Source of the DNA: a bacterium
Lineage (GTDB): Bacteria > SZUA-79 > Acidulodesulfobacterales > Acidulodesulfobacteraceae
NCBI GenBank assembly: GCA_021777135.1
Contig: JAJYDX010000001.1
Location: 310,001 to 374,000 of the forward strand
Length of the DNA stretch: 64,000 bases
Direction of reading: 5' to 3'
Of this stretch, positions 6,211 through 63,838 are shown one piece after another. Under the pieces are notes generated by a model. It had not been told where the DNA came from. It searched no databases and was given only the letters and a program-made list of their open reading frames with translations. Positions within the stretch are counted from its first letter, which is position 1, and each line of letters opens with the position of its first letter. The translations under genes and the position numbers were made by a program.

Positions 6211-6236
6211 GAAGAATAATATGAGGTTTGCATATA

Positions 6237-22315: not shown

Positions 22316-22377
22316 AATTCTATTTATATATTATGGCGAAAAATTAATGCCTGTTAAGGATTGAAGACTAAAAAAAA

Positions 22378-23025
22378 ATGATATTACTCGATGCTGGAAC
22401 AACCTATGCGAAAATATTAAATACCGAAACAGATGAAAGAACTGTTAAAAGGATATCCGAACTTGAAAAAACTTTCCGGGCAGATGTAGGAACTGGACAT
22501 AATATAAGCAGGTTTTCTAAACGTTCGATAAATGAAATTATAGCGCTTGCGAACGCCGGCAGAAGTCTTATAAATGAAAACACTTTTACTCTTTTGGACG
22601 TCGGTTCTAGAGACGCTAAATTCGTAGTATTTGAGGGTGGAAATTTTGTTCATTCCGACTGGAATACTGAATGCGGCGCATTTACAGGGCAAGCATTAGA
22701 AATTCTAGGTAACTATTTAAATGTAGATTATTCTAAAGTAGAGCCTCAAAAGGAATTTATAACTGCGACGTGCGGACTTCTTGGGATGGGTCATGTTTTT
22801 GATATGGTAGCCGGCGGCATCGAACCGGAAACTGCCGCCGCTAGATTAATCAAAGGCGTGTGTATTTCGATGTACAGGTTTACAAGAAAACCAAAAAAAA
22901 TATATCTTACGGGAGGGCTTGTCCAAAACAGTCTTTTTATTAAATCTATGCCTTGCGAAACAATTACGTTGGATAGGTTTACTTTATTGGAAGGAGTTAA
23001 GGAATATGCACTTTCGTTAAATTAA
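22378..23025 (+). CDS. Small BadF/BcrA/HgdC-type ASKHA ATPase
   Basis: A 215-residue single-module relative of the 2-hydroxyglutaryl-CoA dehydratase activator HgdC (about 260 residues). The first phosphate loop is MILLDAGTTYAK, the second LLDVGSRDAKFVVF, and the C-terminal IYLTGGLVQNSLF matches the adenosine loop. Cys99 (NTECGAFTG) and Cys132 (ATCGLLGMG) fall where HgdC holds its dimer-bridging [4Fe-4S] cluster (NDKCAAGTG, SSTCTVFAE). An ATP-driven electron donor is therefore plausible. It follows the unrecognised gene by 62 bases and ends at a hairpin terminator. Partner and substrate are unknown. Confidence 0.78.
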   Translation: MILLDAGTTYAKILNTETDERTVKRISELEKTFRADVGTGHNISRFSKRSINEIIALANAGRSLINENTFTLLDVGSRDAKFVVFEGGNFVHSDWNTECGAFTGQALEILGNYLNVDYSKVEPQKEFITATCGLLGMGHVFDMVAGGIEPETAAARLIKGVCISMYRFTRKPKKIYLTGGLVQNSLFIKSMPCETITLDRFTLLEGVKEYALSLN

Positions 23026-41211: not shown

Positions 41212-43644
41212 ATGACCAAAGAAAAGGAAACTGTATGCGAGTATGTCTGCCTTACTACAGAACAGGCAAATCAAAAAATTGAAGTATGCGGTTTAAACTG
41301 CGTAGAGGAAGAAAAAAGAAATCCAGTAAAAGAATTTTTAAAGAGGTTTTGGGGGCCTATTCCATGGATGCTCGAGTTTGCGGCATTGCTGGAAATTATA
41401 GTAGGAATAACTAGAAAGCAGGACGTAAAATTTATTGAAGCGGCAATTATACTCGCACTTTTAGTATTTAATAGCATTATGTCTTTTATGCATGAAGGCA
41501 AGGCACAGCAGGCGCTTGAGCTTTTAAAACAACGTCTTGCCGTTAAGGCAAAGGTTATGAGGGACGATAAATGGACTATACTGGATGCGAAATACCTTGT
41601 TCCTGAAGACGTCGTTCATTTGAGGATGGGCGATTTTGTTCCTGCGGATATTAAAATTCTGGACAGCCAGATACAGCTTGACCAGTCTGCGCTTACCGGC
41701 GAGTCTCTTCCTATAGAGGCAGAAAAAGGAAGCGTAGCTTTTTCAGGCTCCGTAGTAAAAAGAGGCGAGGCGACAGGAATAGTCGTTGCTACTGGTAAAG
41801 AAAGTTATTTTGGAAAGACTGCCGAACTTGTTAAAATCGCAAAGACAAAGAGCAATCTTTCGAAGCTTATATTTAAAATCGTCAAATATATGATGTATAT
41901 GGATTTTATTCTTTTAGCTTTTTTTCTAGTTTATGCTCTTTCGCATGGTTTTAGCCCTGCAGACACGATAGTATTTATACTCGTTATTTTAATAGCTGCC
42001 ATTCCTATCGCACTGCCAGCCACTTATACGCTTTCCACGGCGCTAGGCGCTCTTGAGCTTTCAAAAAAAGGAGTTCTTACTACCAAACTTTCTGCTATCG
42101 AAGAGTCGGCGGCAATGACCGTGTTGTGCTCAGATAAGACAGGTACTCTGACTGAGAATAAAGTTATACTTGAAGATATAACACCGGTCGAGGGGCATAC
42201 TAAGGAAGAACTGCTTACTTACTCCATTATGGCAAGTGACGAAAAAAGTCAGGATGCTCTGGACGATGCGATATTTAAAGTTACTAATCCAATGAATTTG
42301 AAACCTGAAGGAGATAAGATTACTTTCACGCCGTTTGACCCAGCTACTAAAAGAACAGAGGGGTTATATAAGGTTAACGGCGAAGAAGTCAGGATATTTA
42401 AAGGGCAGCCCGGAACAATATGGAATCTTACCCAGCAAAATTCAGAAGCAGCATATAAATATGAAAATATTGAAAGAGAACTTGCCCAGAAAGGCGAAAG
42501 GGTCCTTGCGGCTGCTTACGAAAAAGGCGGTAAGTATGAATTTCTAGGTTTCTTAGGTTTTATGGATCCAGAAAGAGAAGATTCCAAGCCTCTTGTTCAT
42601 GAACTTCGCAAACTTGGCGTAAGAGTTATAATGCTTACAGGCGATACCGCTATTACCGCTAAAACAATCGCTAAAAGACTGGATATAGGCGAAAGAGTGT
42701 GTGAAAGGAAAGAACTTATAGAAATGAGCAAAGATAAAGAAAAAGAAAAAGGTCTTGCGGATTACGACGTATTTGGAGGGATTTATCCTGAAGACAAATA
42801 TAATATAGTTAAGGCATTACAAGACAACAACTTTATAGTCGGTATGACCGGAGACGGTGTCAATGATTCTCCAGCCCTTAAACAGGCAGAGGTCGGCATT
42901 GCGGTTTCCGGTTCGACTGATGTCGCAAAAGCGGCAGCCAGCATCGTTCTTACTGACCCTGGTTTATCCGATATCGTTTCAGCGATAAAAACCAGCAGGG
43001 AAATATTTCAAAGAATGGCTACTTGGGTGCTTAATAAGATAGCTAAAACCATAGAAATCTCATTCTTTACGATATTCGGGATTATTCTTATGAACTATTA
43101 TTATAATACGCCGGCGAAAAATTCCTTTATAATCACGCCAGTGCTTGTTATTTTATTGCTTTTCACCAACGATTTTGTGACTATGTCTATTTCCACAGAT
43201 AATGTTAAACATTCATTGAAGCCAAATGAATGGAGAATTAAAAATATGGTAATAGGTTCTGTAGCTATGGGTATTTTTCAGCTGATTTTCTCTTTTGGCG
43301 CCCTTGTTTATTATAAAATGCAGGGTCATTACGATATGAGCCAGATTGCAACAATAGTTTTTTTAATAATGGTATTTACCGGACAGGGAGTTCTTTATTT
43401 GGTCAGAACGGCAGACTATTTTTATAAAAGTTCGCCTTCCAAATATATGCTTATTGCAACTTTAGCAGATTTAATAGTAGTTTCTTTTCTTGCATGGATG
43501 GGAGTAAAGTTCGAAGGACATCCTCTTATAGCGCGGATTCCTCTTACGGAGATAATCCGTCTTTATGTATTTGGAGCGGTTTATCTGTTCTTGGTAGATA
43601 TAGTAAAGGTATGGATTTTCAAGAAATACAACGTCAGGCCTTAA
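41212..43644 (+). CDS. Plasma-membrane proton-efflux P-type ATPase 1
   Basis: An 810-residue P3A-type ATPase. It has an N-terminal cation-ATPase domain, about ten membrane segments, the actuator motif LTGESLP, phosphorylation site CSDKTGTLTEN with Asp308, KGQPGTI nucleotide domain, and hinge MTGDGVNDSPALKQAEVGIAV. The family pumps protons out of the cell using ATP, as in fungal Pma1. In bacteria it is frequent in acidophiles. A strong GGGGGG ribosome site precedes the ATG. It is monocistronic, between a -24/-12 promoter and a terminator. A second copy at 60847-63159 is shorter and diverged. Direction and ion are inferred from family. Confidence 0.92.
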   Translation: MTKEKETVCEYVCLTTEQANQKIEVCGLNCVEEEKRNPVKEFLKRFWGPIPWMLEFAALLEIIVGITRKQDVKFIEAAIILALLVFNSIMSFMHEGKAQQALELLKQRLAVKAKVMRDDKWTILDAKYLVPEDVVHLRMGDFVPADIKILDSQIQLDQSALTGESLPIEAEKGSVAFSGSVVKRGEATGIVVATGKESYFGKTAELVKIAKTKSNLSKLIFKIVKYMMYMDFILLAFFLVYALSHGFSPADTIVFILVILIAAIPIALPATYTLSTALGALELSKKGVLTTKLSAIEESAAMTVLCSDKTGTLTENKVILEDITPVEGHTKEELLTYSIMASDEKSQDALDDAIFKVTNPMNLKPEGDKITFTPFDPATKRTEGLYKVNGEEVRIFKGQPGTIWNLTQQNSEAAYKYENIERELAQKGERVLAAAYEKGGKYEFLGFLGFMDPEREDSKPLVHELRKLGVRVIMLTGDTAITAKTIAKRLDIGERVCERKELIEMSKDKEKEKGLADYDVFGGIYPEDKYNIVKALQDNNFIVGMTGDGVNDSPALKQAEVGIAVSGSTDVAKAAASIVLTDPGLSDIVSAIKTSREIFQRMATWVLNKIAKTIEISFFTIFGIILMNYYYNTPAKNSFIITPVLVILLLFTNDFVTMSISTDNVKHSLKPNEWRIKNMVIGSVAMGIFQLIFSFGALVYYKMQGHYDMSQIATIVFLIMVFTGQGVLYLVRTADYFYKSSPSKYMLIATLADLIVVSFLAWMGVKFEGHPLIARIPLTEIIRLYVFGAVYLFLVDIVKVWIFKKYNVRP

Positions 43645-50180: not shown

Positions 50181-50256
<76 letters not shown>

Positions 50257-50528: not shown

Positions 50529-51407
50529 TTGGAAAAAAATATTACCTATTTTCCTGGCTGCTTAGATTCTCAGACTAAAATAAAATCACATGAAATATTA
50601 GAAAGGCTTGGTTTCAATGTAAGCTCGGTTTCTGAATGGAATTGCTGCGGCGCGCCGCCATCCCAGTACAAGCCAGATTTTTTTAATAAAGTAGTCATGC
50701 CTCTTAGAAATCTCGGAATATCACAGCAAAAAGGCGGGAATTTTTTGTATTCCGGCTGTCAGGTATGCGTTAAACATATAAATGAAGCTGTTAAAATAAT
50801 TAATTCCGATTCGATGTTTAAAAATCAAGCCGATTACAGCCTCAATCCTTTTAATGCAAGTCTTAAAGAAACTAAACCCGGCTCAACAGGGTCGATACAT
50901 CTTTTAGATATTATAACCGACCCGGATATAGAAAACGTTATCTTAAATAATATTTCAAAAAATATAAACAACGATTCTATACTGTTTTATACCGGGTGTT
51001 ATCCAAATAAAGAAAATATTAATCGTTTTAAAAATATATTACATAATTTAGGAGCGAAAGTAAGCATTTTTAATGAATGTTGCGGAGGAGAAAAACTTAG
51101 AAATGCTACGCCGGTGCATTCTAAAAGAATGGAAAATGCCAATATAATCGACAGGTTTTTTAAATTAATAAATCAAAAAGCTGACGAAACAGGTTCGGAT
51201 TATATACTGTCGATATGCTCAATGTGTGAAAAAAATATAAACGACGGAATAGATTTGTCAGACCTGAATATTTTTGCTCCAGTAATAGGCTTAAATGAGT
51301 TCACAGGATTTTTATTAGGCATAAAAGGATGCGGTGATTTAATATCCGGTGAAAATAATATTGTCAAAGATAATAAAACTAAAGCTTTACAGGAATACTG
51401 CATATAG
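50529..51407 (+). CDS. HdrB-like CCG-domain protein
   Basis: A 292-residue protein with two CCG cysteine motifs as in heterodisulfide reductase subunit B and its relatives. The first is PGC11...NCC(39-40)G...GCQVC; the second TGC...NECCGG...ICSMC. In HdrB each motif binds a non-cubane [4Fe-4S] cluster that handles disulfide or two-electron chemistry. The start is TTG with AGG about 9 bases upstream. No HdrA or HdrC is adjacent. The next gene is a molybdopterin oxidoreductase, 37 bases on, so an electron-transfer role in that complex is likely. Confidence 0.85.
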   Translation: MEKNITYFPGCLDSQTKIKSHEILERLGFNVSSVSEWNCCGAPPSQYKPDFFNKVVMPLRNLGISQQKGGNFLYSGCQVCVKHINEAVKIINSDSMFKNQADYSLNPFNASLKETKPGSTGSIHLLDIITDPDIENVILNNISKNINNDSILFYTGCYPNKENINRFKNILHNLGAKVSIFNECCGGEKLRNATPVHSKRMENANIIDRFFKLINQKADETGSDYILSICSMCEKNINDGIDLSDLNIFAPVIGLNEFTGFLLGIKGCGDLISGENNIVKDNKTKALQEYCI

Positions 51408-51444
51408 AAAAACAAAATATAAAATATTTAAATGGAGGTAAATA

Positions 51445-53988
51445 ATGGATTTTGAGGAGCAAAAAAACGAGAAATTCCTTAGGGTGAAAGATAACAGACT
51501 CATGAAGATAAAACCTGACCATCGCCCCCAGGAATCATCTAAAGATTACGATACCGTCCGCTATTCGACATGCACTAATATGTGCGAGAGCGGCTGCGGG
51601 CTTAAAATATTCTTAAAAGACGGCAAAATCGTTGATGTAATGGGTGATGCTGAACACCCGCAGAACAGAGGCGGTCTTTGCTCTAAAGGTGTGGGGCAGA
51701 TTCAATGGTGGTACGACCCTCTTAGGGTTCATCATCCTATGATGAGAAAATCTTTGACGGATGATTTTAAAAGAGTTTCATGGGACGATGCGCTTGATTT
51801 TGCCGCCGAAAGATTAATTAAACTGCACGACGAATTTGGTCCGGAAGCGCTTACCGTTTTCAGGACAGGGCGGTCTTCTTTCGGAAATAAAGAAGGGGGA
51901 GCTAGGTTCGGCAGAATATTTGGAACTCCTAATGTTTATGGACAGGGTCCTATATGTTGTGAAAGCCCTGGGGTATCAATGAATTATGTTTTTGGTGCAA
52001 AAGGTTTAGGCAGGCTTATGAATCCTACGCAGGACTGGAAGAATTCAAAGTGTATACTTGTCGTAGGAACAAATATGGCGGCGCAGGAAACTATTACAAT
52101 GACCCACCTTCTAGATGCTAGGGATAACGGCGCATTTTTAATAGGGGTTGACCCCAGGTTTAATGCGACACTTTCTAAATGTGACATAGGCATGAGGATA
52201 CGCTCGGGTTCGGATGCCATATTATTTCTTGCTATGGGAAATATAATCATCAAAGAAAAATTGTATGATAAAGAATTCGTGGACAAATGGGTTACTGGAT
52301 TTGAAGAGTATTCTAAAGAGTGTGCGCAATGGACGCCGGAAAGAGCGGAAAAACTTACGTATGTTCCTAAAGAAATGATTATAGAGGCTGCAAGAAGATT
52401 CGGCTCGGCACGGCCTGCATCTGTAACTGGAAATTTAGGCACCGCGCAGATATATAACTCAAACAACGTCAACAGGTCTATAGCAGCTCTTTTAGCGCTT
52501 ACCGGTTCCATAGGGGTAAAAGGTGGTGGCTGGAACTGGCTTCATAACTGCCGTCCGCCCTTAAATTATGGAAACGATTTAAAAGTATTACCAGATTTTA
52601 AAAGACCACAGATAACTGATAAATTAATATCGTGGGGAGATAGTTCGGTTCCTTGCATCATAAATGCAATGATGTACGAAAAGCCGTATCCGGTTAAGGG
52701 TATTATATGGAATGGCGACCATTTGCCACAGTTTCCCAACTCTTGGAAGATGGAAGAAGCTATGAAGAAAAATATAATAAATATACATCTTTCAATATAT
52801 CCTAATCATACTTATATGTTTAGTCATGTAGCTTTTCCAATAGCCATTTCAGTAGAGACAGACAGTGTTTGTCATCACGGCAATAATAGACTCATACAAT
52901 GGCACAATAAAATAATACCATATCAGCATGAACATAGACCCGATATAGACGTTTTCGACGGTCTTGCTAAAAGGCTTAAGGGGCATGCAGGTTATTTCGA
53001 CAAAGTTGAGTTTAACCCTTGGGGTTATTACGAAGACGGTCCTGATAAAGGAAGAGTCAACGAAATTAAGATGACGGATTTCTTTAACGAACAGGAGCCT
53101 TTCACTAGAGGTATTACTTATGAATTGCTTAATCCCGAGAAAAACCCCAAAGGTGGTTTGATGTGGCCTGTAATGTCAAAAGAAGAAGCGACATTCCAAG
53201 ATGACGAAGCTGTTTTAAGAGGAAAGTGGATAATGTACAAAGAAGGCGAGAATTATCCGGAAACCGATAAAAGGTTCCCTACTCCTTCGGGAAAAATAGA
53301 AATAGCTTCTGATGCTCTAGAAAAAGTAGGTTGGTATAAAGTTCCTACTCAGGTAGAAGGTTCCGAATCTCCTATCGGTAATTTTGAAAGGGCAAAAAAA
53401 TATCCTTTGGTTTTAAATACTACACGTATAGCGCAGTCATTTCATGAAGGCGGGCACTGGTGGCCGTGGAACGACGAACTGGAACCTGACAGAAACATAG
53501 AGATAAATCCGGCTACAGCAGCTGTTATGGGTATAGAAGACGGAGATATGGTTATAGTTGAAAACGACAGGGGTTGGGTTGAGGGTCCGGCTTGGGTTAC
53601 GGAGATGGTTCCAGAGGATGGAATATGGGCAAATTTTGGATTTGACAGATATCAGCCGTTTCATCCATATGAGTCAATCAATACCGTAATAGACGATATA
53701 ATAAAAGACCCTGTTTACGGCCAGATACAGTTTAAAGCCGTTCTTTGCAGGGTTTACAGGAAAGGCGACCCTGATCCGGAGGCTACCGCCAAGAACGCTT
53801 TGGAATTTTTACAGAAAAAATTTCCTGAAGTTTGGGATCCAAGACTTCAGGATAAAAATGTAATCGTCGGAAAATGGAAAGACCACTGGAAAGAATATCA
53901 CGAATTGAGTATTGGATGGAAAAAACTCGTTAATTTTAAAGAGCCTGTGGAATGCACGCCAGATTCATGCGATGTTCGCAGATATTAA
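51445..53988 (+). CDS. Cytoplasmic molybdopterin oxidoreductase catalytic subunit
   Basis: An 847-residue DMSO-reductase-superfamily protein. The N-terminal cluster motif is C43-x3-C47-x3-C51-x27-C79, followed by SKG with Lys81 on the usual electron path. The Mo/W ligand is probably one of Cys171-Cys172 in GQGPICCESPGVSMNY. Pterin-binding marks include LVVGTNMAAQE, GVDPRFNAT, GNLGTAQIYNSNNVNRS and the C-terminal domain (EINPATAAVMGIEDGDMVIVENDRG). No Tat or Sec signal is present, so it works in the cytoplasm. No in-frame TGA occurs, so it is not a selenoprotein. The four-cluster subunit follows. The substrate cannot be named; formate, sulfur-compound and hydratase relatives all share this frame. 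Confidence 0.9.
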   Translation: MDFEEQKNEKFLRVKDNRLMKIKPDHRPQESSKDYDTVRYSTCTNMCESGCGLKIFLKDGKIVDVMGDAEHPQNRGGLCSKGVGQIQWWYDPLRVHHPMMRKSLTDDFKRVSWDDALDFAAERLIKLHDEFGPEALTVFRTGRSSFGNKEGGARFGRIFGTPNVYGQGPICCESPGVSMNYVFGAKGLGRLMNPTQDWKNSKCILVVGTNMAAQETITMTHLLDARDNGAFLIGVDPRFNATLSKCDIGMRIRSGSDAILFLAMGNIIIKEKLYDKEFVDKWVTGFEEYSKECAQWTPERAEKLTYVPKEMIIEAARRFGSARPASVTGNLGTAQIYNSNNVNRSIAALLALTGSIGVKGGGWNWLHNCRPPLNYGNDLKVLPDFKRPQITDKLISWGDSSVPCIINAMMYEKPYPVKGIIWNGDHLPQFPNSWKMEEAMKKNIINIHLSIYPNHTYMFSHVAFPIAISVETDSVCHHGNNRLIQWHNKIIPYQHEHRPDIDVFDGLAKRLKGHAGYFDKVEFNPWGYYEDGPDKGRVNEIKMTDFFNEQEPFTRGITYELLNPEKNPKGGLMWPVMSKEEATFQDDEAVLRGKWIMYKEGENYPETDKRFPTPSGKIEIASDALEKVGWYKVPTQVEGSESPIGNFERAKKYPLVLNTTRIAQSFHEGGHWWPWNDELEPDRNIEINPATAAVMGIEDGDMVIVENDRGWVEGPAWVTEMVPEDGIWANFGFDRYQPFHPYESINTVIDDIIKDPVYGQIQFKAVLCRVYRKGDPDPEATAKNALEFLQKKFPEVWDPRLQDKNVIVGKWKDHWKEYHELSIGWKKLVNFKEPVECTPDSCDVRRY

Positions 53989-54016
53989 ACAATTAATTTA
54001 ATTATAATAAAAATAT

Positions 54017-54058
54017 CCGGTAACCCGCCGCTTGTTAAGCGACGGGGCAACCTGGTAA
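54017..54058 (+). repeat. GC-rich hairpin flanked by CC(T)GGTAA repeats
   Basis: CCCGCCGCTT (54024-54033) pairs with AAGCGACGGG (54037-54046) around a GTT loop, with one C-A mismatch. Direct repeats CCGGTAA (54017-54023) and CCTGGTAA (54051-54058) flank it. It stands out in an AT-rich 100-base gap between the catalytic and iron-sulfur subunit genes. No T-run follows. Confidence 0.75.
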
Positions 54059-54088
54059 TTATAAACTATAAAGAATAGGAGCATAAAT

Positions 54089-54742
54089 ATGTCTTCGGAA
54101 TACGGATTCGATAGATTTCATCTTGGAGAGGAAAGGGCTTCCAGGGTCACTTTAAAATCATCCACTCCAAAATATTCAATGAAGGTAAACACCGATAGGT
54201 GTATAGGCTGCATGTCTTGCGAAGTGTCCTGTAAAAAAGAGCATAATCTTCCAGTCGGACCACGCAGGATGAGGGTTATACAGGTGGGACCTTATTTTGT
54301 TAAAAAAGGACAATTAAAAACTGTTTACCTCCCAATGAACTGCTTTCATTGTGACGATGCCGCATGCGTAAAGTCCTGCCCGACGGGTTCTATGCAAAAA
54401 AGAGCTGACGGCATAGTTTTTAACGACCCGAATACTTGCATAGGGTGTAAGTCTTGCATACACGCTTGCCCTTTTGGTTCTCCCCAGTTTAACGAAGCAA
54501 CCGGAAAAGTTACAAAATGCGATTATTGCAAACACAGGGTTGACGAAGGGCTTTTACCTGCGTGCGTTACGTTATGTTCGACAGATGCGCTTTGGTTTGG
54601 AAATATAAATAGAATATCCACCATTGACAGGGAAAAAACGGCAAGAAAATTAACTGAGCATCTATTTGGCTTTATTGCTCCTCATGCGCCTATGGGCACA
54701 TCTTCGACTAACGATACGGACAATTCCGTGAAAGTCGGTTAA
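54089..54742 (+). CDS. Four-cluster iron-sulfur electron-transfer subunit
   Basis: A 217-residue DmsB/PsrB-like ferredoxin with 16 cysteines in four sets. They are CIGCMSCEVSCKKEH, CFHCDDAACVKSCP, CIGCKSCIHACPFGSP and CDYCKHRVDEGLLPACVTLC. It passes electrons to or from the molybdopterin subunit encoded before it. No signal peptide and no membrane-anchor gene are present, which again indicates a soluble cytoplasmic enzyme. It has a TAGGAG ribosome site. Confidence 0.92.
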   Translation: MSSEYGFDRFHLGEERASRVTLKSSTPKYSMKVNTDRCIGCMSCEVSCKKEHNLPVGPRRMRVIQVGPYFVKKGQLKTVYLPMNCFHCDDAACVKSCPTGSMQKRADGIVFNDPNTCIGCKSCIHACPFGSPQFNEATGKVTKCDYCKHRVDEGLLPACVTLCSTDALWFGNINRISTIDREKTARKLTEHLFGFIAPHAPMGTSSTNDTDNSVKVG

Positions 54743-54775
54743 TTTTAATATATATTATAAAAATACGGAGGTTTT

Positions 54776-55021
54776 ATGGCAGATATATTAGCCGCTGGAA
54801 CCGTTTATAATGCGCCTATAAGAGTAGAATATATAAACGGTGACTTTGATAAAGCGGAGGAAATTCTTAAAAAAGCTGATATTCATATTTTAGGCAGAAA
54901 TGTTGCAAGCGTAACACCTTACCATGCAACAATATTCGTTGGACTTAAAGATGAAAGCAAGGCATTGAGTTTAATTAAAAAATCGGGAATAAAGACGTAT
55001 CCTGTCGAACCTTATTTTTAA
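54776..55021 (+). CDS. Unrecognised 81-residue protein in the molybdenum-enzyme island
   Basis: I do not recognise this protein. It is soluble, with alternating strand-like and helix-like stretches: IRVEYINGDFDKAEEILKKA, then TPYHATIFVGLKDESKALSLIKKSGI, and ending YPVEPYF. The beta-alpha-beta rhythm recalls small ferredoxin-like or ACT-like folds. It has a good GGAGG ribosome site and sits between the iron-sulfur subunit and moeA. A maturation or regulatory role for the enzyme is possible. It has no cysteines. Confidence 0.75.
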   Translation: MADILAAGTVYNAPIRVEYINGDFDKAEEILKKADIHILGRNVASVTPYHATIFVGLKDESKALSLIKKSGIKTYPVEPYF

Positions 55022-55083
55022 TTTTTTAATTAATATATTAACATATTATTTGAATGAAATGCCGTCTGTTTATAAATTAAATT

Positions 55084-56367
55084 ATGCAAGATAGAACAGC
55101 CGATAAATTATTAAATATAGCCGGGGCAAATATTAAAAAAATTACGGCATCTGAAAGTATACCGGTAGAAGACGGCATAGGAAGGATTATATCTGAAAAT
55201 ATAACCCCAGCAGTTGATGTTCCGCCGTTTGTTAGGTCTGCGGTCGATGGATTTGCCTTAGTATATTCGGATTTTTCTGAAAAAAAAATAGAAACATTTA
55301 AGGTTAAAAACAAAATTACCGCCGGATATTCAAAAACGATTGAACCTCTGAAGATCGGAGAAGCTGCTTTTGTAACAACTGGAGCGCCTATTCCACCTAA
55401 TGCCGATACCGTTGTCTTAATAGAAGATACCGAAGAATATGCCGGAGGGCATATGACGTATAAAAAAACGGCTGAAAAGGGTTCTTATATTTCGCCTGTA
55501 GGAGACGATATTAAAAAAGGCGAAATATTATTTAATAAAGGACATAGAATAAGATTTTGCGATATTGCGGCTCTATCGGGCATCGGCCTAAATTTTGTTT
55601 CGGTATATAAAAAACCTGTTATCGGTATATTGTCCGGCGGAAATGAATTAACTGCACCCGGAGTAAAACTCGCTTCCGGCAAAATATATGATATAAATAC
55701 TAACGTGTTAAAATCTTTAATAAAAGATGCGGGAGGAATCCCTGAAATAATAGGTGTTGTCGAGGACAAATTAGAAAAGCTGGTCGAAATTTTAGAAAAT
55801 GCAGATAACTCTGGGAAATATGATTTATTAATTTCAACCGGCGGAACGGGTGCCAGTTTTTTAGTTTTAGAAAATAAAGAAATTACTAATTTTTACGATT
55901 TGATTCCTTCCGCTGTCGAAAAAACCGGTAAATTATTATTTCACGGCGTTAAGCTTATACCTGGAAAACCTACTTCATTTGGTGTTTTGAACGGTGGAAC
56001 ACCCATATTTGCACTTGCAGGTTGGCCGTATTCAGTTTTGATAACCTTTGATCTTTTTATAAGGCCGTCTATACAGGAAATGACCAATTCGGCAAATATT
56101 TACAAAAGATACGCTTCTTTAAAGGCTATTTTAAAACATAGAGTTACCAAGGAAGAGGGTACTAGAAAATATTTTCAAGTAAAATTGTCAAAAGAAAACG
56201 ACTATCTGTGGGCATCGGTAATAGCAGCGCCTAAGCCGCCTTCGGCTGCAAGATCTTTAAGCCCAATAATAAATGCGGACGGCAGTTTCGTTATGGAAGA
56301 AGAAACAACAGTTATAGAGGCAGGCAGCCTAATATCGGTCACGTTAAACGATTATGAAATTTTATAA
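55084..56367 (+). CDS. moeA: Molybdopterin molybdotransferase MoeA
   Basis: A 427-residue MoeA that inserts molybdate (or tungstate) into adenylylated molybdopterin. It has PVEDGIGRIISENI, DVPPFVRSAVDGFAL, GEAAFVTTGAPIPPNADTVV, GDDIKKGEIL, GILSGGNEL, the MogA-like core motif STGGTGAS, and PGKPTSFGVLNG...ALAGWPYSV. The C-terminal domain IV follows. It starts the cofactor-making part of the island. No tight ribosome site is seen. Confidence 0.95.
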   Translation: MQDRTADKLLNIAGANIKKITASESIPVEDGIGRIISENITPAVDVPPFVRSAVDGFALVYSDFSEKKIETFKVKNKITAGYSKTIEPLKIGEAAFVTTGAPIPPNADTVVLIEDTEEYAGGHMTYKKTAEKGSYISPVGDDIKKGEILFNKGHRIRFCDIAALSGIGLNFVSVYKKPVIGILSGGNELTAPGVKLASGKIYDINTNVLKSLIKDAGGIPEIIGVVEDKLEKLVEILENADNSGKYDLLISTGGTGASFLVLENKEITNFYDLIPSAVEKTGKLLFHGVKLIPGKPTSFGVLNGGTPIFALAGWPYSVLITFDLFIRPSIQEMTNSANIYKRYASLKAILKHRVTKEEGTRKYFQVKLSKENDYLWASVIAAPKPPSAARSLSPIINADGSFVMEEETTVIEAGSLISVTLNDYEIL

Positions 56368-56392
56368 ATAATAAAAATAGCGAGATTTTTTA

Positions 56393-57238
56393 ATGAAACC
56401 TTATATATTTAAAATGTTTAACGATAAAGAATACGAATTTGGCCGAGGGAGATTTGAATTTAAAATTCCGTCTTTAAGAGTGTCCCTGGTAAGCAGATGT
56501 AACGCGCGCTGTTTTTATTGCCACAACGAAGGAATATCTAAGAAAATGACTTCGGTTATTCAAACCGGGGACATAATAAATACCATATCCCTATTAAAGG
56601 AGTTCGGACTTAAAAAGATAAAAATTACCGGTGGAGAGCCGCTGTTGTTTGAAGATTTTAAAAATCTTATATATAAAATAAAACACATAGCAGATGTGGA
56701 AATTTTTATAACCACAAACGGCACACTTGTTAAAAAAAGGATAAAGGACCTTAGTCCAAATGTAATAAATAAAATATCTGTAAGCCTGGATACGCTAGAC
56801 CCTAATATTTATAAGTATATTACCGGAAAGAATCTACTCGAAGAAGTTGTTTCTGGGCTCAATATGTTAAAAAAAAATGGATATAGCGTTGAAATAAACA
56901 ATCTATTACTTAAAGGTTTAAATACAAATAAAAAATGTTTGCAAAATATGATTAATTATTGTACTGAAAATGGATTTGATTTGCAGTTTATAGAAATGTC
57001 AGATAAAACGCCGCAGTCTTTTTATTCCAAATACTATGCGGAGCCCTATAAAACTTTACAAAGATGCGGTTTTGACTTTAATAAAGGTAAATCTAACGAT
57101 AGACAGTTTTTTAAAATAAAGGGTTCTAAAGTTACTCTTTGCAGGAATGTTAAAGATGTTTGCGAATCTTCCGGCGATAGATGTGGCGGTTTAAGACTTT
57201 TGCCTAACGGCGTACTTAAAAATTTTCTTTACGAGTAA
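56393..57238 (+). CDS. MoaA-like radical SAM protein with altered C-terminal cysteines
   Basis: A 281-residue radical SAM enzyme. The first cluster motif is C36-x3-C40-x2-C43 in SRCNARCFYCHNEG, followed by KITGGEPLL and SVSLDTLDP. This is closest to MoaA, which with MoaC makes cyclic pyranopterin monophosphate from GTP. The CHNEG form resembles archaeal MoaA. The usual second-cluster motif C-x2-C-x13-C is replaced by Cys250-x6-Cys257-x6-Cys264, and the last MoaA cysteine place is Phe (LKNFLYE). It is shorter than the usual 320-340 and lacks the C-terminal GG. It may be an unusual MoaA or act on another pterin step. Confidence 0.75.
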   Translation: MKPYIFKMFNDKEYEFGRGRFEFKIPSLRVSLVSRCNARCFYCHNEGISKKMTSVIQTGDIINTISLLKEFGLKKIKITGGEPLLFEDFKNLIYKIKHIADVEIFITTNGTLVKKRIKDLSPNVINKISVSLDTLDPNIYKYITGKNLLEEVVSGLNMLKKNGYSVEINNLLLKGLNTNKKCLQNMINYCTENGFDLQFIEMSDKTPQSFYSKYYAEPYKTLQRCGFDFNKGKSNDRQFFKIKGSKVTLCRNVKDVCESSGDRCGGLRLLPNGVLKNFLYE

Positions 57239-57258
57239 CTTAAGAGGTTAAATATTAT

Positions 57259-57747
57259 ATGATAGTAGAACTGATAGGTAAAGAAGCAGGTTTAACCTTT
57301 GAATGTATGCATATAGTGCCCGGCAGAGGTGATTGTTCGCGGATACATCCGCATTTTCATTATGTAGATGTTCTGGTTGACGGGGAATTCGACGAAAAGA
57401 GGCGGATAGTTCATTTATACAATTTAAAAGCAGTCATAATGAGGATATGTTCCGCGTTTGAAGATAAAATTTTAATAGCTGATTATCCTGAAAGCGTTCA
57501 AAAAATTACTATTGAAGATATGCATTATAAAATAGAGATAAATAATAAACTTTATCTTATACCTAAATCCGATATTTTTAAAATAAAAAGTCCTTCTTTA
57601 AACATAGAAGATTTAACGGTTTATTTCGGAAATGAGCTTGCTTTAGATTTACAAAATAAAGAAATGTTTAATTCATTAAAATATTTCGAGGTTACTCTAA
57701 GCGAAGGGCATGGTCAGAGAGGAAAATTAAGGATGGATTTGAAATAA
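57259..57747 (+). CDS. 6-pyruvoyl-tetrahydropterin synthase/QueD-like protein
   Basis: A 162-residue member of the PTPS fold. The zinc histidines appear as His18 (FECMHIVPG) and His30, His32, with the catalytic-cysteine signature Cys26-x3-His-Pro-His in GDCSRIHPHFHYVDVLVDGEF. This matches CxxxHGH of PTPS-I/QueD with Pro for Gly. VHLYNLKAVI and DKILIADYP match the usual VVDFGDLK and LDHKxLND region. Relatives act on dihydroneopterin triphosphate to make tetrahydropterin, queuosine precursors or folate intermediates. It sits directly after the MoaA-like gene, where moaC might be expected, so a role in this pathway is tempting but unproven. Confidence 0.75.
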   Translation: MIVELIGKEAGLTFECMHIVPGRGDCSRIHPHFHYVDVLVDGEFDEKRRIVHLYNLKAVIMRICSAFEDKILIADYPESVQKITIEDMHYKIEINNKLYLIPKSDIFKIKSPSLNIEDLTVYFGNELALDLQNKEMFNSLKYFEVTLSEGHGQRGKLRMDLK

Positions 57748-57749
57748 TA

Positions 57750-58724
57750 ATGAATGAAACAAGCAGTATAATACTTGCTGGTGGAGAGTCCAAAAGATTT
57801 GGAGAGGATAAGATTTTTTTTGATTTTAGGGGAAAATCTTTTTTGGAAAGGGCTCTGGATGTTGCAACGGAAATAGGCGGAGATATTGTAATATGCGTCA
57901 GGGAAAATGATAAGATAAGAAAATATTTTACTGAGACTAAAAAAATTTTAAAAAAAAGAGAACAAGCAGGAAAAAAAATTGTAATGCCGCAGATAATCTC
58001 GGATGATAAAGATTGCGGTTTTAGGGGGCCTTTAAAAGGAATTTACAGTTCCATTAAAGTATTAAAAGGTAAAACGGCGTTAGTCATGGAATGCGATGCA
58101 CCTTTTTTTAATTTTGAAGCTGCAAGAGAACTCATAAAAAAGCTGAAATTGGAACAAGTTAACGCTGTCGTTCCAATGTGGTCAGATTCTACCGTGGAAC
58201 CCTTACTCGCATGTTATAGAACAAAAGAGACGACATTAATTCTTAAGATTCTTAACAATTATGCTTTAAATTTAAAAGAGCATTTCTTATTTACCGATGC
58301 GGTAAATATTTTACGGCTCTTATCCTCAGTTTATTATTATAATATTTTCGATATGATGAAAAATAATTCCAACTTAAAAGCAGAATTATTTATAAACATA
58401 AACTCAAAAAAAGATTTAGAAGAATATGGCTGCAATGAAAAAATAAATAATAAAGGTGTATCAAAAAGTGTTAAAATAAGAAAATCGAACAGATTTTTTA
58501 ATTTAAAGGATCCGGCAGGTAAGCCTTACGGCATACTCGCAAACGCATTATATTTTTGGTGGGTTTATGCCAAAACAGGCAATTTTATATATCTTAAAAA
58601 ATCCTTCGAGTATTTTAAAAAAGACAGCTTAGTTTATCGCAATAACGAATTACACTTCATGGGAAACAAAATTTTAAATCTTTTGCCCGATCCTTTCGAA
58701 GTATTGCGAATAAAAAATAAATAA
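57750..58724 (+). CDS. mobA: MobA-like guanylyltransferase with C-terminal extension
   Basis: A 324-residue protein. Residues 1 to about 210 are MobA: GTP-binding IILAGGESKRFGEDK (8-22), VMECDAPFF with the metal aspartate, and VVPMWSDSTVEPLLACYR. MobA joins GMP to molybdopterin to form the guanine dinucleotide. The last 110 residues (SKSVKIRKSNRFFNLKDPAG onward, with NALYFWWVYAKTGNFIYL) match nothing I know. Normal MobA is about 190-210 residues. The start is 2 bases after the PTPS-like gene, so the two are probably coupled. Confidence 0.85.
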   Translation: MNETSSIILAGGESKRFGEDKIFFDFRGKSFLERALDVATEIGGDIVICVRENDKIRKYFTETKKILKKREQAGKKIVMPQIISDDKDCGFRGPLKGIYSSIKVLKGKTALVMECDAPFFNFEAARELIKKLKLEQVNAVVPMWSDSTVEPLLACYRTKETTLILKILNNYALNLKEHFLFTDAVNILRLLSSVYYYNIFDMMKNNSNLKAELFININSKKDLEEYGCNEKINNKGVSKSVKIRKSNRFFNLKDPAGKPYGILANALYFWWVYAKTGNFIYLKKSFEYFKKDSLVYRNNELHFMGNKILNLLPDPFEVLRIKNK

Positions 58725-58738
58725 AAAAAGAGGCTATC

Positions 58739-59293
58739 ATGCATAAGAATAAGCTCACTAACTTAAAAGAAGATTTAAAGAAAAATCAGATAGAAATAAT
58801 GCTGTACCCTTCAAAATGCGACGGTTGCGAAAATGAAGGAGTTGCGGCATGCTTGAAAGCTTGTGAAACGCATATGGCTAGAAAATACGGTTCTAAATAT
58901 AAAGGTGCAAGAATTAATATAAAGAAAAAAGCAGGTAAATTTTTTCCAATAATATGTCATAACTGCGAAGAAGCTCCATGTGTAGATGCTTGTATGCCTG
59001 GTGCTAGATATAAAGATTTAGAATCTGGCTGGACGGTAACAAATTATAAAAAATGCGTAGGATGCTGGATGTGCGTTATGTCCTGTCCTTTCGGCGCAAT
59101 AGAAAGGATAGGAGAAGGTCATTTTGCTTCAAAATGTGACGGCTGCATAGACGAAGCTAATCCTAAATGTGTGGAAGCTTGTAAGAAAGGAGCGCTAAAA
59201 AGAACTGGCATTAAAAATTACTCATATGAAAGAAGGCTAATGGTTGCAAAAAAAATTTACGGTCCGTATATAAAATCCGTTACAGAGAAATAA
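58739..59293 (+). CDS. CooF/HycB-like four-cluster ferredoxin
   Basis: A 184-residue protein with four cysteine groups: CDGCENEGVAACLKAC, CHNCEEAPCVDAC, CVGCWMCVMSCPFGAI and CDGCIDEANPKCVEAC. Such proteins carry electrons between enzymes such as CO dehydrogenase, formate dehydrogenase or hydrogenase and a partner. There is no signal peptide. It is followed 15 bases later by an NAD(P)/FAD oxidoreductase, a pairing known beside CO dehydrogenase genes. No CO dehydrogenase is present here, so it more likely serves the molybdenum enzyme. Confidence 0.88.
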   Translation: MHKNKLTNLKEDLKKNQIEIMLYPSKCDGCENEGVAACLKACETHMARKYGSKYKGARINIKKKAGKFFPIICHNCEEAPCVDACMPGARYKDLESGWTVTNYKKCVGCWMCVMSCPFGAIERIGEGHFASKCDGCIDEANPKCVEACKKGALKRTGIKNYSYERRLMVAKKIYGPYIKSVTEK

Positions 59294-59308
59294 AAAGGGG
59301 ATTGGATT

Positions 59309-60634
59309 ATGAAGTACGTTATTATAGGAAATTCATATGCCGGTTTGTCTTGCGCAGATTCAATAAGGCGTTTTGACAAATCGGGAGATGTCGTTATTAT
59401 ATCTGACGAAAATTACAAGGCTTACGCAAGACCTTTAATATCATATTACCTTGAAGGAAAAACTACCGATGAAACAATATGGTATAAAGAAGACGATTAT
59501 TATGAAAAGAATAATTTTAAGCTTATTCTTGGCAAAAAGGTAGTTTCTGTCGATACCGAATCAAAAAAAGTTTTTTTAGAAGACGGAAATATATTTGATT
59601 ACGACAAGCTTTTTATAGGTCCTGGAGGAACACCGTTTGTGCCTCCTACCGAAGGATTTAATGCAGACTCGCCTATGATGGGAACTTTCACTAGATTTGA
59701 CGATGCTAAAAAGATGGAAAAAGCTGCTAAGTTATCAAAAAACAAAGAAGCGATAGTCGTTGGAGGAGGACTTATTGGATTAAAGGCTTCTGAAGGTCTA
59801 AGGGCATTAGGTCTCCATGTTACTATTGTGGAATTGCTCCCGCGAGTTTTAGGTCTGGCTCTTGACGAAATATCCGGAAATATAACTTCTAAAAAACTTA
59901 ACGAGAACGGCATAGATACTGCTACCGGCGAGACGGTTACGAAAATTAATCTGGATGAATCTGGTAATCCGGTAAGCGTTATATTAAAAAGCGGAAAAGT
60001 GCTTACCGCCGATATTGTAGTAGTTGGAGTCGGTGTTAGGCCTAACGTTGGTTTCTTGGAAGGGAGCGGGATAAAAATAGACAGGGGCATTATAGTAGAT
60101 AAAACTATGATGACGAGTGTCAAAGACGTATATGCTGGCGGAGATGCCGCAGTAATTTACGATATATTAAACAAACGTCCAAATATTATTGCGATAGTGC
60201 CTCTGGCATGCGAAGAAGGACGGGTTGCCGGAACTAATATGGCTGGTGTTTATAGAGAATACCCTGGCGGAATGGGTTTGAATTCCGTTGAAATTTACGG
60301 ACTACCCATAGTAACTATAGGTTTAACTAACCCGTCAGACGAATCCCAAAAAGTATTTATTTTTCAGGATGAAAATATTTACAGAAAACTCGTGTATGAA
60401 AGTGAGATATTAGTAGGAGCAATTTTACTTGGGGATATTTCCGGCAGCGGAATATTATCTGCTATTATAAGGCAGGGTTTAAAATGTTTTAAATATAAAG
60501 ATGAATTTCTTAATGGAAACATCTATTCTTTCGTCATCGATAACGAATTTGAAATATATAATATTAACGAGGGATACGCTATAAGAGGCGATTTTGAAGA
60601 TTTACCTGAGTTTTCAAGAACTAACTGGCGTTAG
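59309..60634 (+). CDS. FAD-dependent NAD(P)H oxidoreductase
   Basis: A 441-residue flavoprotein of the pyridine-nucleotide-disulfide type (NADH oxidase / ferredoxin or rubredoxin reductase like). The FAD loop is YVIIGNSYAGLSCADSI, the NAD(P) loop IVVGGGLIGLKASEGLRALG with VTIVE, and the second FAD motif VYAGGDAAV. The ARPLISYYLEGKT region lacks the CxxC or sulfenic Cys of disulfide reductases and CoA-disulfide reductases. Together with the CooF-like ferredoxin it should link the enzyme to the NAD(P)H pool. It has a GGGGA ribosome site. Confidence 0.88.
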   Translation: MKYVIIGNSYAGLSCADSIRRFDKSGDVVIISDENYKAYARPLISYYLEGKTTDETIWYKEDDYYEKNNFKLILGKKVVSVDTESKKVFLEDGNIFDYDKLFIGPGGTPFVPPTEGFNADSPMMGTFTRFDDAKKMEKAAKLSKNKEAIVVGGGLIGLKASEGLRALGLHVTIVELLPRVLGLALDEISGNITSKKLNENGIDTATGETVTKINLDESGNPVSVILKSGKVLTADIVVVGVGVRPNVGFLEGSGIKIDRGIIVDKTMMTSVKDVYAGGDAAVIYDILNKRPNIIAIVPLACEEGRVAGTNMAGVYREYPGGMGLNSVEIYGLPIVTIGLTNPSDESQKVFIFQDENIYRKLVYESEILVGAILLGDISGSGILSAIIRQGLKCFKYKDEFLNGNIYSFVIDNEFEIYNINEGYAIRGDFEDLPEFSRTNWR

Positions 60635-60637
60635 ATT

Positions 60638-60850
60638 ATGAATAATAATATAAACAATGAAGATTCGTTGGAAAAGCCCCTGAACGCGTTGATAGAAGAA
60701 TTGCTTATAGAAGTTAAAGATATTCCTGAAACAGATTTCGGAAAATGGTATGAAAAAAAAAGAAAAGTTTTTAATATAGGTATTAAAAATTTTCCGACTA
60801 AAGAAGAATTCATTAAGTATCTGAATTATGCCTTGTCGATACGGTTTTAA
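60638..60850 (+). CDS. Hypothetical 70-residue acidic protein
   Basis: I do not recognise this product. It is acidic at the N-terminus (MNNNINNEDSLEKPLNALIEELLIEVKDIPETDFGKWYEKKRK) and ends in KEEFIKYLNYALSIRF. It has no membrane segment and no cysteine. It begins 3 bases after the flavoprotein stop and overlaps the end of the convergent proton ATPase 2 by 4 bases. Its position suggests it is the last gene of the island. No clear ribosome site is seen. Confidence 0.55.
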   Translation: MNNNINNEDSLEKPLNALIEELLIEVKDIPETDFGKWYEKKRKVFNIGIKNFPTKEEFIKYLNYALSIRF

Positions 60851-63159
60851 ATCAATTTTTTCATAACCGGAGCCTTTATAAAATCTAGTAATATCATATA
60901 GATAAACGTACTGGCAAACAGGATGGTTATGTCTTCAAGCGGAATTTTCTCCATCAGTATCCCAAAATATGCCATTAAAATTATTATTATTAAATCCAGA
61001 GCGCTTGCCAGCATTAAATAATTACCGGGTTTTGATTTATAAAAATGACCCTCCTCTCTTACTAAATAAACTGTTGCTTGAGCGCTGAATACCAATGACA
61101 GAAAAGCGAGGGTCTGAACCTGCGTAAGGCTCAGATTGATAATGTAATAGCCTATGTAATAAACTGCAAAAGAATAAATTAGCCATGCTCCAGCAATTAA
61201 AAGAGACGAAGAAACTATCAGCTTGATTTTCCATTTATCAGGTTTATTAGAATATACCGCGTTATCTTTTGCTATAGACATAGTAACAAAATCATTTGCA
61301 AAAATTAATATAAGGATTAGTTTAGGGGTAGTGACGAATTTACCGAAGAAGATTAAGCCTAAACTAAGAAAAAGAGCCACTTGGAAGGTTTTAGAAATTT
61401 TATTTAAAGTATACGTAAGCATTCTTCTATAAACTATTCTCCCATATTTTACTGCATCTACAATATTAGATAAGCCAGGTTCTGTTAGAATAAGGCTTGC
61501 CGCGGCTTTTGCAACGTCTGTCGCATTAGCAACAGCTATTCCTACTTCGGCCTGTTTAAGCGCGGGGGCATCGTTGACTCCGTCACCCGTCATGCCCGTA
61601 ATTTTTTTTAGTTTTTGAATTCCCTGTACCAGATGAAATTTGTCCTCTGGAAAAACTCCCGCAAATACGTCACATTCAGCAGGGTTTTTAAAGTTTTCGC
61701 GACCGCATACTTTTTCGCCTAGACCAATTAAATTTGCCGTGGTTTTTGCAGTGCGTTCGGTATCGCCTGTTACCATTCTAACCCTTATGCCTAAGCTTTT
61801 AAGTTCATCCAGCAATTTCTTAGAATCTTTTCTTGGAGGATCGGATAATCCTAAAATACCTACCGGTATAAATTGACTGGTTTTTTTATCTTCTATCATT
61901 ACGGCGATAACCCTGTAGCCCATATCTTCAAATTTTTCAGCTTCTTTAGAAACTTTATCGGCATCTGTATCATTTAAACTTTGAGATATTACTATTGGAG
62001 AGCCTTTAATTACGCTAATTTGCGTTCCTTCGTTTTTTTCTACTACGGCTTCCGCCCTTTTTGTTTGAGGGTCAAAAGGAATAAATTTTATTACATGTCC
62101 AATTTCAGGAATATTTATTTTATGTAATTTGACGTATGAAATTATAGAAAGGTCTATCGGATCCTGAGTCGATTCTTCTGAAGCCGCAGTTGCGTAAGCG
62201 AAAAGTTCTTCTGTCCCGAAAGGTTTTAAGGGTTTAAAATCGGTAAGAGCAAGCAAGTTTTCAGTTAACGTACCGGTTTTATCAGAGCATAATTCTTCCA
62301 TTGAAGCGATATCCTCTATTGCCGAAAGATGCGTAACAAGTATTCCCCTATTCGCAAGCCTCATAGAGGCTAATGCCGTTGCAAGTGTAAAAGTAACCGG
62401 AAGCGCTACAGGTATAGAAGCAACAAGAAGTATTAACGCGAATGGGAGTATTCCGGCAAAATTCATTTTATAGACCAATGCATAAACGAGTATCAAAGCT
62501 ACGAGAATACCGTCTATTATAATAAAATAGCGGACTATTTTAAGTATTAGTTCTTCCAGATGACCTTTAGTTTTAGCGGATTTTATTAATTCTGCAGTTT
62601 TTCCGAAATAGCTTGCCGCTCCAGTTGCCGTAACCTTACATGTAGCTTCGCCTCTTTTTATTATAGAACCAGAATAAACCGCTTCGCCATCGCTTCTATC
62701 GACCGGCTGGGATTCTCCGGTTAAAGCCGATTGGTCAACTAATGTATTTCCTGAAATAATTTTGATATCTGCCGGAACTAAATCGCCCATTCTTATATGA
62801 ATAACATCTCCGGGGAGCAATTCTTCGGCAGGCAGCTTAATCCACTTGCCGTCCCTTAATACCCTTGCGATAATTTTAAGCTGTTTTTTTAATAAATCGA
62901 GAGCTTTTTCAGCTTTATTTTCTTGCTTAAAAGAAATTGCCGCATTAAATAAAAGCAAGCCTATGATAATATATGCTTCTATGTGTTTCCCAAGTATTAA
63001 TTCTACAATAAAAGTAAACTCGAGCATCCAAGCAACAGGATTCCAGAATTTGGAAAGAAAAATAATAAACGGGTGCCTTTTTTGTTCCTTTATAGTGTTT
63101 AACCCGTATTGCACGGTTAATTTTTTGGCTTCTTCGGATGTCAGACCTTTAAAATCCAT
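60847..63159 (-). CDS. Plasma-membrane proton-efflux P-type ATPase 2
   Basis: A 770-residue P3A-type ATPase. It shares the layout of proton ATPase 1 but is about 40 residues shorter. It begins directly at the cation-ATPase N-domain (LTSEEAKKLTVQYGLN), with LTGESQP, CSDKTGTLTEN (Asp293), MTGDGVNDAPALKQAEVGIAV and about ten membrane segments. AGGA lies 9 bases before the ATG. No -24/-12 promoter is visible in front of it, unlike copy 1, so the two copies may be used under different conditions. Proton as the ion is inferred from family. Confidence 0.92.
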   Translation of the reverse strand: MDFKGLTSEEAKKLTVQYGLNTIKEQKRHPFIIFLSKFWNPVAWMLEFTFIVELILGKHIEAYIIIGLLLFNAAISFKQENKAEKALDLLKKQLKIIARVLRDGKWIKLPAEELLPGDVIHIRMGDLVPADIKIISGNTLVDQSALTGESQPVDRSDGEAVYSGSIIKRGEATCKVTATGAASYFGKTAELIKSAKTKGHLEELILKIVRYFIIIDGILVALILVYALVYKMNFAGILPFALILLVASIPVALPVTFTLATALASMRLANRGILVTHLSAIEDIASMEELCSDKTGTLTENLLALTDFKPLKPFGTEELFAYATAASEESTQDPIDLSIISYVKLHKINIPEIGHVIKFIPFDPQTKRAEAVVEKNEGTQISVIKGSPIVISQSLNDTDADKVSKEAEKFEDMGYRVIAVMIEDKKTSQFIPVGILGLSDPPRKDSKKLLDELKSLGIRVRMVTGDTERTAKTTANLIGLGEKVCGRENFKNPAECDVFAGVFPEDKFHLVQGIQKLKKITGMTGDGVNDAPALKQAEVGIAVANATDVAKAAASLILTEPGLSNIVDAVKYGRIVYRRMLTYTLNKISKTFQVALFLSLGLIFFGKFVTTPKLILILIFANDFVTMSIAKDNAVYSNKPDKWKIKLIVSSSLLIAGAWLIYSFAVYYIGYYIINLSLTQVQTLAFLSLVFSAQATVYLVREEGHFYKSKPGNYLMLASALDLIIIILMAYFGILMEKIPLEDITILFASTFIYMILLDFIKAPVMKKLI

Positions 63160-63307
63160 AATTTTTTATCCTAGTCTTAATTTTACGATACAAAAAATAT
63201 AAACTTTGCAGCAAAATAACTCTTTATTTGCTGTTGGCTTTATTTTAAATTTTATTATAAAATTATATAAATATTATATATATTTTATAATAATCTTTAT
63301 AAAAAAT

Positions 63308-63838
63308 ATGCGAACAAACGACAAAATGCCTAAAGCCGTTTCTTTTATAGCGATGTCCGGTACCGGTAAAACTACTTTAATAGTGAAGATTATAAAAATA
63401 CTTTCGGACAGGGGCTATAAGGTTTCTTCAGTTAAGCATACAGACCACGATTTTGAATCGGATATTCCAGGTAAAGATTCATGGAGGCATAAAAATGCAG
63501 GAGCATTTTCTACTATGCTCCTTTCGGGGGACAAAGCGGCGTTATTTACAGATATAGATACGTCTTTCAATATGGGAATAGATGCTATAATATCTAAATA
63601 TTTTATCGGTTCAGATATTGTTATAATCGAAGGATTTAAAGACTTAAAAATAAAAAAAATAGAACTGCTGAGAAAGGATATAACGCCTGATTTAAAACTG
63701 AGATTTAAAAACCACCAAGGTCTTATTCTTGTTTGCGCCGATGAATTCATAAAAGATATCGAAGTTCCTCAAATTAGTATCAACGATGCTGATAAAATCG
63801 CCGATTTTATAGAAAACAATATTATTAACGCAATTTAA
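63308..63838 (+). CDS. mobB: MobB-like molybdopterin-guanine dinucleotide adapter
   Basis: A protein of about 176 residues with P-loop AMSGTGKTTLIVKII, SVKHTDHDFESDIPGKDSWRHKNAG, and VIIEGFKDLKIKKIELLRK, all MobB marks. MobB is a GTPase that aids MobA. The frame is open further upstream (to 63206), but that part is a hydrophobic AT-rich stretch unlike MobB, so the ATG at 63308 (or 63326) is preferred; neither has a good ribosome site. It overlaps the next gene by 1 base (TAATG). Confidence 0.88.
   Translation: MRTNDKMPKAVSFIAMSGTGKTTLIVKIIKILSDRGYKVSSVKHTDHDFESDIPGKDSWRHKNAGAFSTMLLSGDKAALFTDIDTSFNMGIDAIISKYFIGSDIVIIEGFKDLKIKKIELLRKDITPDLKLRFKNHQGLILVCADEFIKDIEVPQISINDADKIADFIENNIINAI

Follow-up and report, generated by a model that had tools for sequence, protein, structure and literature searches.

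What kind of enzyme is encoded by a gene block that joins a molybdopterin oxidoreductase to iron-sulfur, flavin and HdrB-like proteins and to cofactor genes? The question is raised by positions 50529-60850 of a 64,000-nucleotide stretch of contig JAJYDX010000001.1 (the whole stretch is hereafter called the window), which belongs to a 2.12-Mb metagenome-assembled genome (MAG) of Candidatus (Ca.) Acidulodesulfobacteriota (SZUA-79). This acid mine drainage phylum is likely autotrophic, with nitrogen fixation, and carries DsrAB in most members (PMC6776010); among the close relatives of the host are isolate SZUA-79 and Ca. Acididesulfobacter diazotrophicus AP1, both placed under Ca. Acidulodesulfobacteriota. 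The block consists of eleven co-directional open reading frames (ORFs), not ten as counted in the preliminary description, with intergenic gaps of 2-100 nt; we call the genes, in order, hdrB-like, molA, molB, sp81, moeA, moaA2, ptps, mobA, cooF-like, FAD protein (for flavin adenine dinucleotide) and sp70 (Table 1). The parts described there recur at their positions and with the domains assigned to them, as judged by ORFs, Pfam and NCBIfam. We consider, with a probability of about 0.4, that the operon encodes a cytoplasmic NAD(P)-linked oxidoreductase of the molybdenum-bis(pyranopterin guanine dinucleotide) (Mo-bisPGD) type with its own maturation set and a sulfur substrate, and that its catalytic subunit, MolA, represents a new clade of the dimethyl sulfoxide (DMSO) reductase superfamily. 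In this reading the architecture is more secure than the substrate.

MolA contains the Molybdop_Fe4S4, Molybdopterin and Molydop_binding domains of the superfamily in this order, all above the Pfam cut-offs. Its cluster motif, C43-x3-C47-x3-C51-x27-C79, is followed by Lys81, and inspection of the N-terminus by eye revealed neither a twin-arginine (Tat) nor another export motif, in agreement with the soluble enzyme initially described. No curated NCBIfam model reaches its cut-off with MolA (Fdh-alpha TIGR01591, 270 bits against 666; PhsA, 229 against 694; NasC, 185 against 1100), and the top matches in the PDB are FdhF of the hydrogen-dependent CO2 reductase (HDCR; 7qv7) and PsrA (2.3e-51), ArrA being far weaker (1.5e-23). 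In place of the selenocysteine (Sec)/Cys-His pair of formate dehydrogenases MolA has C171-C172-E173, invariant in Bacteria and Archaea, and in place of their active-site Arg motif PLRGQNNVQG it has WLHNCRP. MAFFT aligns C171 with the Cys/Sec and C172 with the His; phmmer aligns C172 with the Cys and E173 with the His. We favour C171 as the probable metal ligand, because an archaeal paralogue with 36% identity keeps C171 and has Gly at 172. The motifs QGPxCCESPG, GGGWNWLHNCRP and HHGNNR are common, with small exceptions, to the bacterial and archaeal copies.

In the IQ-TREE tree of 32 rows, in which named references are few and several branches are long and from which SoeA, TtrA, ArrA and acetylene hydratase are absent, MolA forms its own clade (support 100/100), split from the formate dehydrogenase/Nap group with 100/99 and situated on the side of PsrA, DmsA, TorA and NarG. 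A search for SoeA-like references gave plasmid matches at 22-28% identity, none of them SoeA-like. Since the active-site residues are missing, the cut-offs are missed and the clade is separate, it is unlikely that MolA is a formate dehydrogenase, and the expectation that it stands outside known families has held. No paper naming the enzyme or its subunit set was found in the open-access literature, and the Acidulodesulfobacterales paper mentions no molybdo-enzyme in its main text. Two more large molybdopterin oxidoreductases are encoded in the host genome (C54:116471-117766 and C92:6549-7844).

MolA is present in 25 of the 30 genomes of the host family. The loci of 18 relatives from five genera were compared with the window, and in all relatives with sufficient sequence (17 of 17) the eleven genes, sp70 among them, have the same order and orientation, so that the arrangement is not due to chance; the contig of the 18th relative stops after MolB and is consistent with this order. 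The search for the same gene order in other genomes, proposed at the outset, was thus answered positively. Identity to the window copy in the 18 loci is 90-98% for MolA, 87-98% for MolB, 81-94% for the FAD protein, 78-89% for the CooF-like protein, 69-90% for PTPS, 48-76% for the HdrB-like protein and 35-78% for MobA. The mean identity of MolA over 18 genomes is 93.9%, versus 92.9% for GroEL. Judging from these values, purifying selection on MolA is as strong as on a core chaperonin, the CooF-like and FAD proteins following close behind, and MolA would hence be a core enzyme.

The first electron-transfer partner, MolB, has 16 Cys, enough for the four [4Fe-4S] clusters ascribed to it, and its top PDB match is PsrB (2vpw_B, 1.6e-31), ArrB also being matched (6.2e-29). 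PsrAB/PhsAB (2vpw) thus resemble the present pair in combining a Mo-bisPGD catalytic subunit with a four-cluster B subunit, MolB being nearest to PsrB, and in lying on the same side of the tree. In contrast to them, the operon contains no NrfD-type membrane anchor subunit, no Tat motif was seen in MolA, Lys81 stands in place of an Arg, and identity is about 29%, with the PhsA cut-off missed. The small protein sp81 has a homologue adjoining MolA-MolB in another bacterial phylum (locus L084). Its AlphaFold2 model is modest (pLDDT, the predicted local distance difference test, 69), with a beta-alpha-beta-beta-alpha order and weak Foldseek matches to PII-like/ACT domains (E about 1e-3 to 1e-2), which tentatively suggests an ACT/ferredoxin-like fold.

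The FAD protein has FAD and NAD(P) domains. Its nearest solved homologue is AorC (8c0z_E, 4.1e-54), and its best NCBIfam match is PadH (284.9 bits, the cut-off of 475 being missed). In the tungsten aldehyde oxidoreductase of Aromatoleum, AorA wires the tungsten site to FAD/NAD and AorC is the NAD-binding cap (PMC10413684). The CooF-like protein likewise has the 16 Cys that four [4Fe-4S] clusters require; its best NCBIfam match is PadI, below the cut-off, and its PDB matches include HycB4 (7qv7_B) and AorA (8c0z_C). Described at first as a CooF-like ferredoxin, this protein is better read by sequence as an AorA/PadI-type partner of the AorC/PadH-like flavoprotein, and in that case no separate low-potential ferredoxin branch need be assumed. 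Given this flavoprotein and a partner that fits AorA/PadI, the complex is likely to include an NAD(P)H module, as already suggested. AorABC (8c0z) offers a parallel, as there too a small four-cluster ferredoxin and an FAD subunit join a metal-pterin enzyme to NAD; AorB, however, is of the aldehyde oxidoreductase (AOR) family and unrelated to MolA, and AorABC has no MolB, HdrB or MoaA2/PTPS. Similarly, PadHI of the NADH-dependent phenylglyoxylate dehydrogenase provides the top models for both proteins, although its catalytic partner is unrelated to MolA.

The HdrB-like protein allows two alternatives: it could pass electrons to a thiol-disulfide carrier, or it could be a membrane/quinone subunit of the SdhE/MfrE type, electrons then moving between NAD(P)H, the substrate and menaquinone with no disulfide chemistry. 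The latter, which we regard as somewhat unlikely, agrees with the higher score of the SdhE-type anchor model (48.6 bits) than of HdrB TIGR03288 (37.9 bits), with the operon having neither HdrA nor HdrC beside the gene, and with the protein evolving much faster than MolA. However, both scores are far under the cut-offs (500 and 345 bits, respectively), and the two CCG motifs retain their cysteines, as in HdrB, in the window and ten aligned relatives, which also bears out the original assignment as a CCG protein. The match to HdrB in the PDB is at E 2e-4.

Two peptide patterns were used to scan 84,980 species genomes, an approach that can miss relatives; the matches came from the phylum and from two archaeal MAGs (51-53% identity). 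Profile searching of 386 genomes, of which 356 lie outside the host family, added one further bacterium (G312), in which a 3.6-kb contig carries MolA (52% identical), MolB and an sp81 homologue; only one of the 19 genomes of its phylum has MolA, and the short contig could be mis-binned. Among the archaea, orthologues occur in 14 of the 23 genomes of one DsrAB-bearing phylum (identity 49-52%) and in no other archaeon among about 370 sampled. Apart from this phylum and the one bacterium, some 730 further genomes that were sampled gave no orthologue. This phylum is probably Hydrothermarchaeota, since its DsrAB, formylmethanofuran dehydrogenase and AOR genes match the gene complement of published Hydrothermarchaeota genomes (PMC6775978, PMC6759336).

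In the archaea, a divergent mobA-moeA usually precedes MolA and MolB; these are followed, in some loci after a small protein, by a second MolB-like protein and by a TorD-like chaperone (PF02613). In one locus MolAB is further accompanied by genes for TauE/SafE and for the molybdate transporter MOT1, the latter hinting at molybdenum as the metal. At loci L121 and L122 the neighbours of the 36% paralogue of MolA, which has a single Cys (CGEN), are FwdB, two moeA genes and a gene of MoaA-like type. At another locus (L119, genome G415) an AOR-family gene and a small Fe-S protein gene are located a few kb from MolA, two DsrA-like genes being present in that genome; six archaeal loci, L110 among them, have small ORFs and a cupin near MolA.

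The fetched archaeal stretches showed neither an HdrB nor a CooF-like/AorC-like pair nor a PTPS beside MolA. As neither the HdrB nor the NADH module is found there, both look like lineage additions, and the core of the system would seem to consist of MolA-MolB, joined in Bacteria by the 81-aa protein. Taken further, this would make the flanking genes a loose maturation or housekeeping set, the enzyme being MolA-MolB (with the 81-aa protein) and the NADH and HdrB modules serving other partners. We consider this unlikely: the archaeal gene content fits it, but 17 bacterial loci keep the eleven-gene order perfectly, and the FAD and CooF-like proteins evolve slowly, in step with MolA.

The four cofactor genes were recovered with their domains, but the moaA-like one is a non-canonical paralogue rather than an ordinary cofactor gene. 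Nor is the island self-contained, as had been supposed: canonical moaA (375 bits, versus 158 for MoaA2) and moaC are located elsewhere in the host genome, and MogA-like and MoaD-MoaE-like ORFs, by our reading, lie at 4940-6210 of the window. MoaA2 keeps the radical S-adenosylmethionine (SAM) motif CxxxCxxC of MoaA as CNxxCxYC in all aligned sequences. It differs from MoaA in the loss of the C-terminal cluster motif CxxC-x13-C (the third Cys is replaced and the first not aligned), of the Arg of CNR (one basic residue) and of the C-terminal GG tail. The PTPS-like protein keeps, in ten relatives, the zinc-binding His18, His30 and His32 and the catalytic-type Cys26 (C-x3-H-P-H) known from QueD/PTPS. 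From these residues, both proteins look like active enzymes acting on another pterin-like substrate, and the combination of a non-canonical MoaA with a PTPS/QueD-like enzyme suggests dedicated cofactor work. A MoaA-like gene also adjoins one archaeal orthologue (L119, 34% identity to MoaA2) and the paralogue at L121 and L122, and these proteins resemble MoaA2 in that Phe or another residue occupies the third Cys position of the C-terminal motif of canonical MoaA; they pass one general MoaA cut-off, and it may be that these archaea use them as their ordinary MoaA. It is highly doubtful, though conceivable, that MoaA2 and the PTPS-like enzyme make a distinct pterin and that MolA, with a modified metallopterin, catalyses a reaction undescribed for the superfamily and common to both phyla. 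PTPS as a substitute for MoaC was rejected, moaC being present in the host genome. No literature on MoaA together with PTPS was found.

Under the NAD(P)-linked reading, the molybdenum of MolA, with Cys171 as its probable ligand, would be the site at which a small substrate is oxidised or reduced, a sulfur oxyanion or a sulfane-sulfur compound being the most likely one. We infer from homology a path in which electrons would leave the [4Fe-4S] cluster of MolA, cross the four MolB clusters and the CooF/AorA-like wire, and reach NAD(P) by way of the FAD in the AorC/PadH-like subunit. The HdrB-like subunit would offer them another exit, towards a thiol-disulfide carrier or quinone. MoeA and MobA would complete the cofactor, for which MoaA2 and the PTPS-like enzyme would supply or modify the pterin. 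The substrate and the direction of the reaction are a guess, and for the substrate a weak one; a sulfur compound is the best candidate because of the type of MolB, the side of the tree, TauE in one locus and the DsrAB background, as both main host phyla carry DsrAB.

Several observations weigh against this reading, in addition to the missing partners in the archaeal loci. Six Acidulodesulfobacteriota genomes keep MolA without a DsrA match, one 99%-complete genome has DsrA but no MolA, and in the archaeal phylum the association of MolA with DsrA is not significant (Fisher p 0.18). Arg332 of polysulfide reductase (PSR), a further residue distinguishing PsrAB/PhsAB from MolA, aligns with Gly; the TauE gene is limited to one locus; and the association of the subunits is deduced from gene neighbourhood alone. 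A firm link to sulfate reduction was dropped, given the p value of 0.18 and the Dsr-negative relatives that keep MolA. Recoding, considered for an in-frame TAG in several DsrA matches, was also rejected, as the codon looks like a natural stop ending the match.

Alternatively, MolA could be a cytoplasmic, NADH-fed reductase of arsenate, selenate or another metal oxyanion, serving respiration or tolerance in waters rich in metals. The occurrence of the phylum in acid mine drainage (PMC6776010) and the ArrB match of MolB are consistent with this option, which is nevertheless quite improbable, as MolA matches ArrA far less well than PsrA, the block has no ars-type genes, and conservation at the GroEL level would be unusual for a tolerance gene. 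Finally, a divergent formate dehydrogenase or CO2 reductase, with HdrB and NADH modules coupling formate to NAD and a disulfide (cf. FdhAB-Hdr), would explain the top Fdh-alpha and FdhF scores, the shared fold, Lys81 rather than Arg between the cluster and the pterin, and FwdB beside the archaeal paralogue, but it is very improbable given the absence of the catalytic His and Arg, the separate clade, the missed cut-off, the other partners, and the presence in the host of another protein (C54:116471) that is formate dehydrogenase-like and keeps the Cys-His pair and the Arg motif.

Table 1. Genes of the conserved block and an associated gene, with window coordinates
Feature	Coordinates	Strand	Evidence
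HdrB-like protein, 292 aa, TTG start, two CCG domains	50529..51407	+	PF02754 1.6e-12
MolA, 847-aa Mo/W-bisPGD-type catalytic subunit	51445..53988	+	PF00384, PF01568, PF04879
MolB, four-cluster [4Fe-4S] subunit, PsrB/TtrB/DmsB type	54089..54742	+	PF13247, 16 Cys
sp81, 81 aa, tentative ACT/ferredoxin-like fold	54776..55021	+	no Pfam or NCBIfam match
MoeA-like molybdotransferase	55084..56367	+	PF03453, PF00994, PF03454
MoaA2, non-canonical MoaA-like radical SAM protein	56393..57238	+	CNxxCxYC kept
PTPS/QueD-like pterin enzyme, residues intact	57259..57747	+	PF01242
MobA-like guanylyltransferase with C-terminal extension	57750..58724	+	PF12804; MobA NCBIfam 91.8 bits, below cut-off
CooF/AorA/PadI-like four-cluster ferredoxin	58739..59293	+	PF13247, 16 Cys
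AorC/PadH-like FAD-NAD(P) oxidoreductase	59309..60634	+	PF07992
sp70, 70 aa, final gene of the block	60638..60850	+	no Pfam match
MobB-like protein, associated, outside the block	63206..63838	+	reading of ORF

Downstream, the operon is limited by a convergent P-type ATPase gene (60847-63159, minus strand), one of two in the window that read as the plasma-membrane proton-pump kind (the other at 41212-43644); in 12 of 18 relatives the mobB-like gene, too, is retained on the downstream side. Upstream there is a tRNA gene (50181-50253), and the upstream ATP-synthase genes adjoin the operon in only a few relatives' loci. A promoter scan gave a signal no better than chance. Elsewhere in the window (6228-9227 and 21392-23025), ORFs read as large and small proteins resembling BadF/HgdC-type ATPases that activate acyl-CoA dehydratases or reductases.

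An entire phylum of uncultured bacteria from acid mine waters retains one cytoplasmic molybdenum-type enzyme as strictly as its chaperonin. The presence of the same enzyme in DsrAB-bearing archaea is a pointer to gene transfer between the domains, and the MoaA2/PTPS pair makes dedicated pterin chemistry a testable question. The substrate of MolA, once known, would fill a hole in the models of the lifestyle of these organisms.

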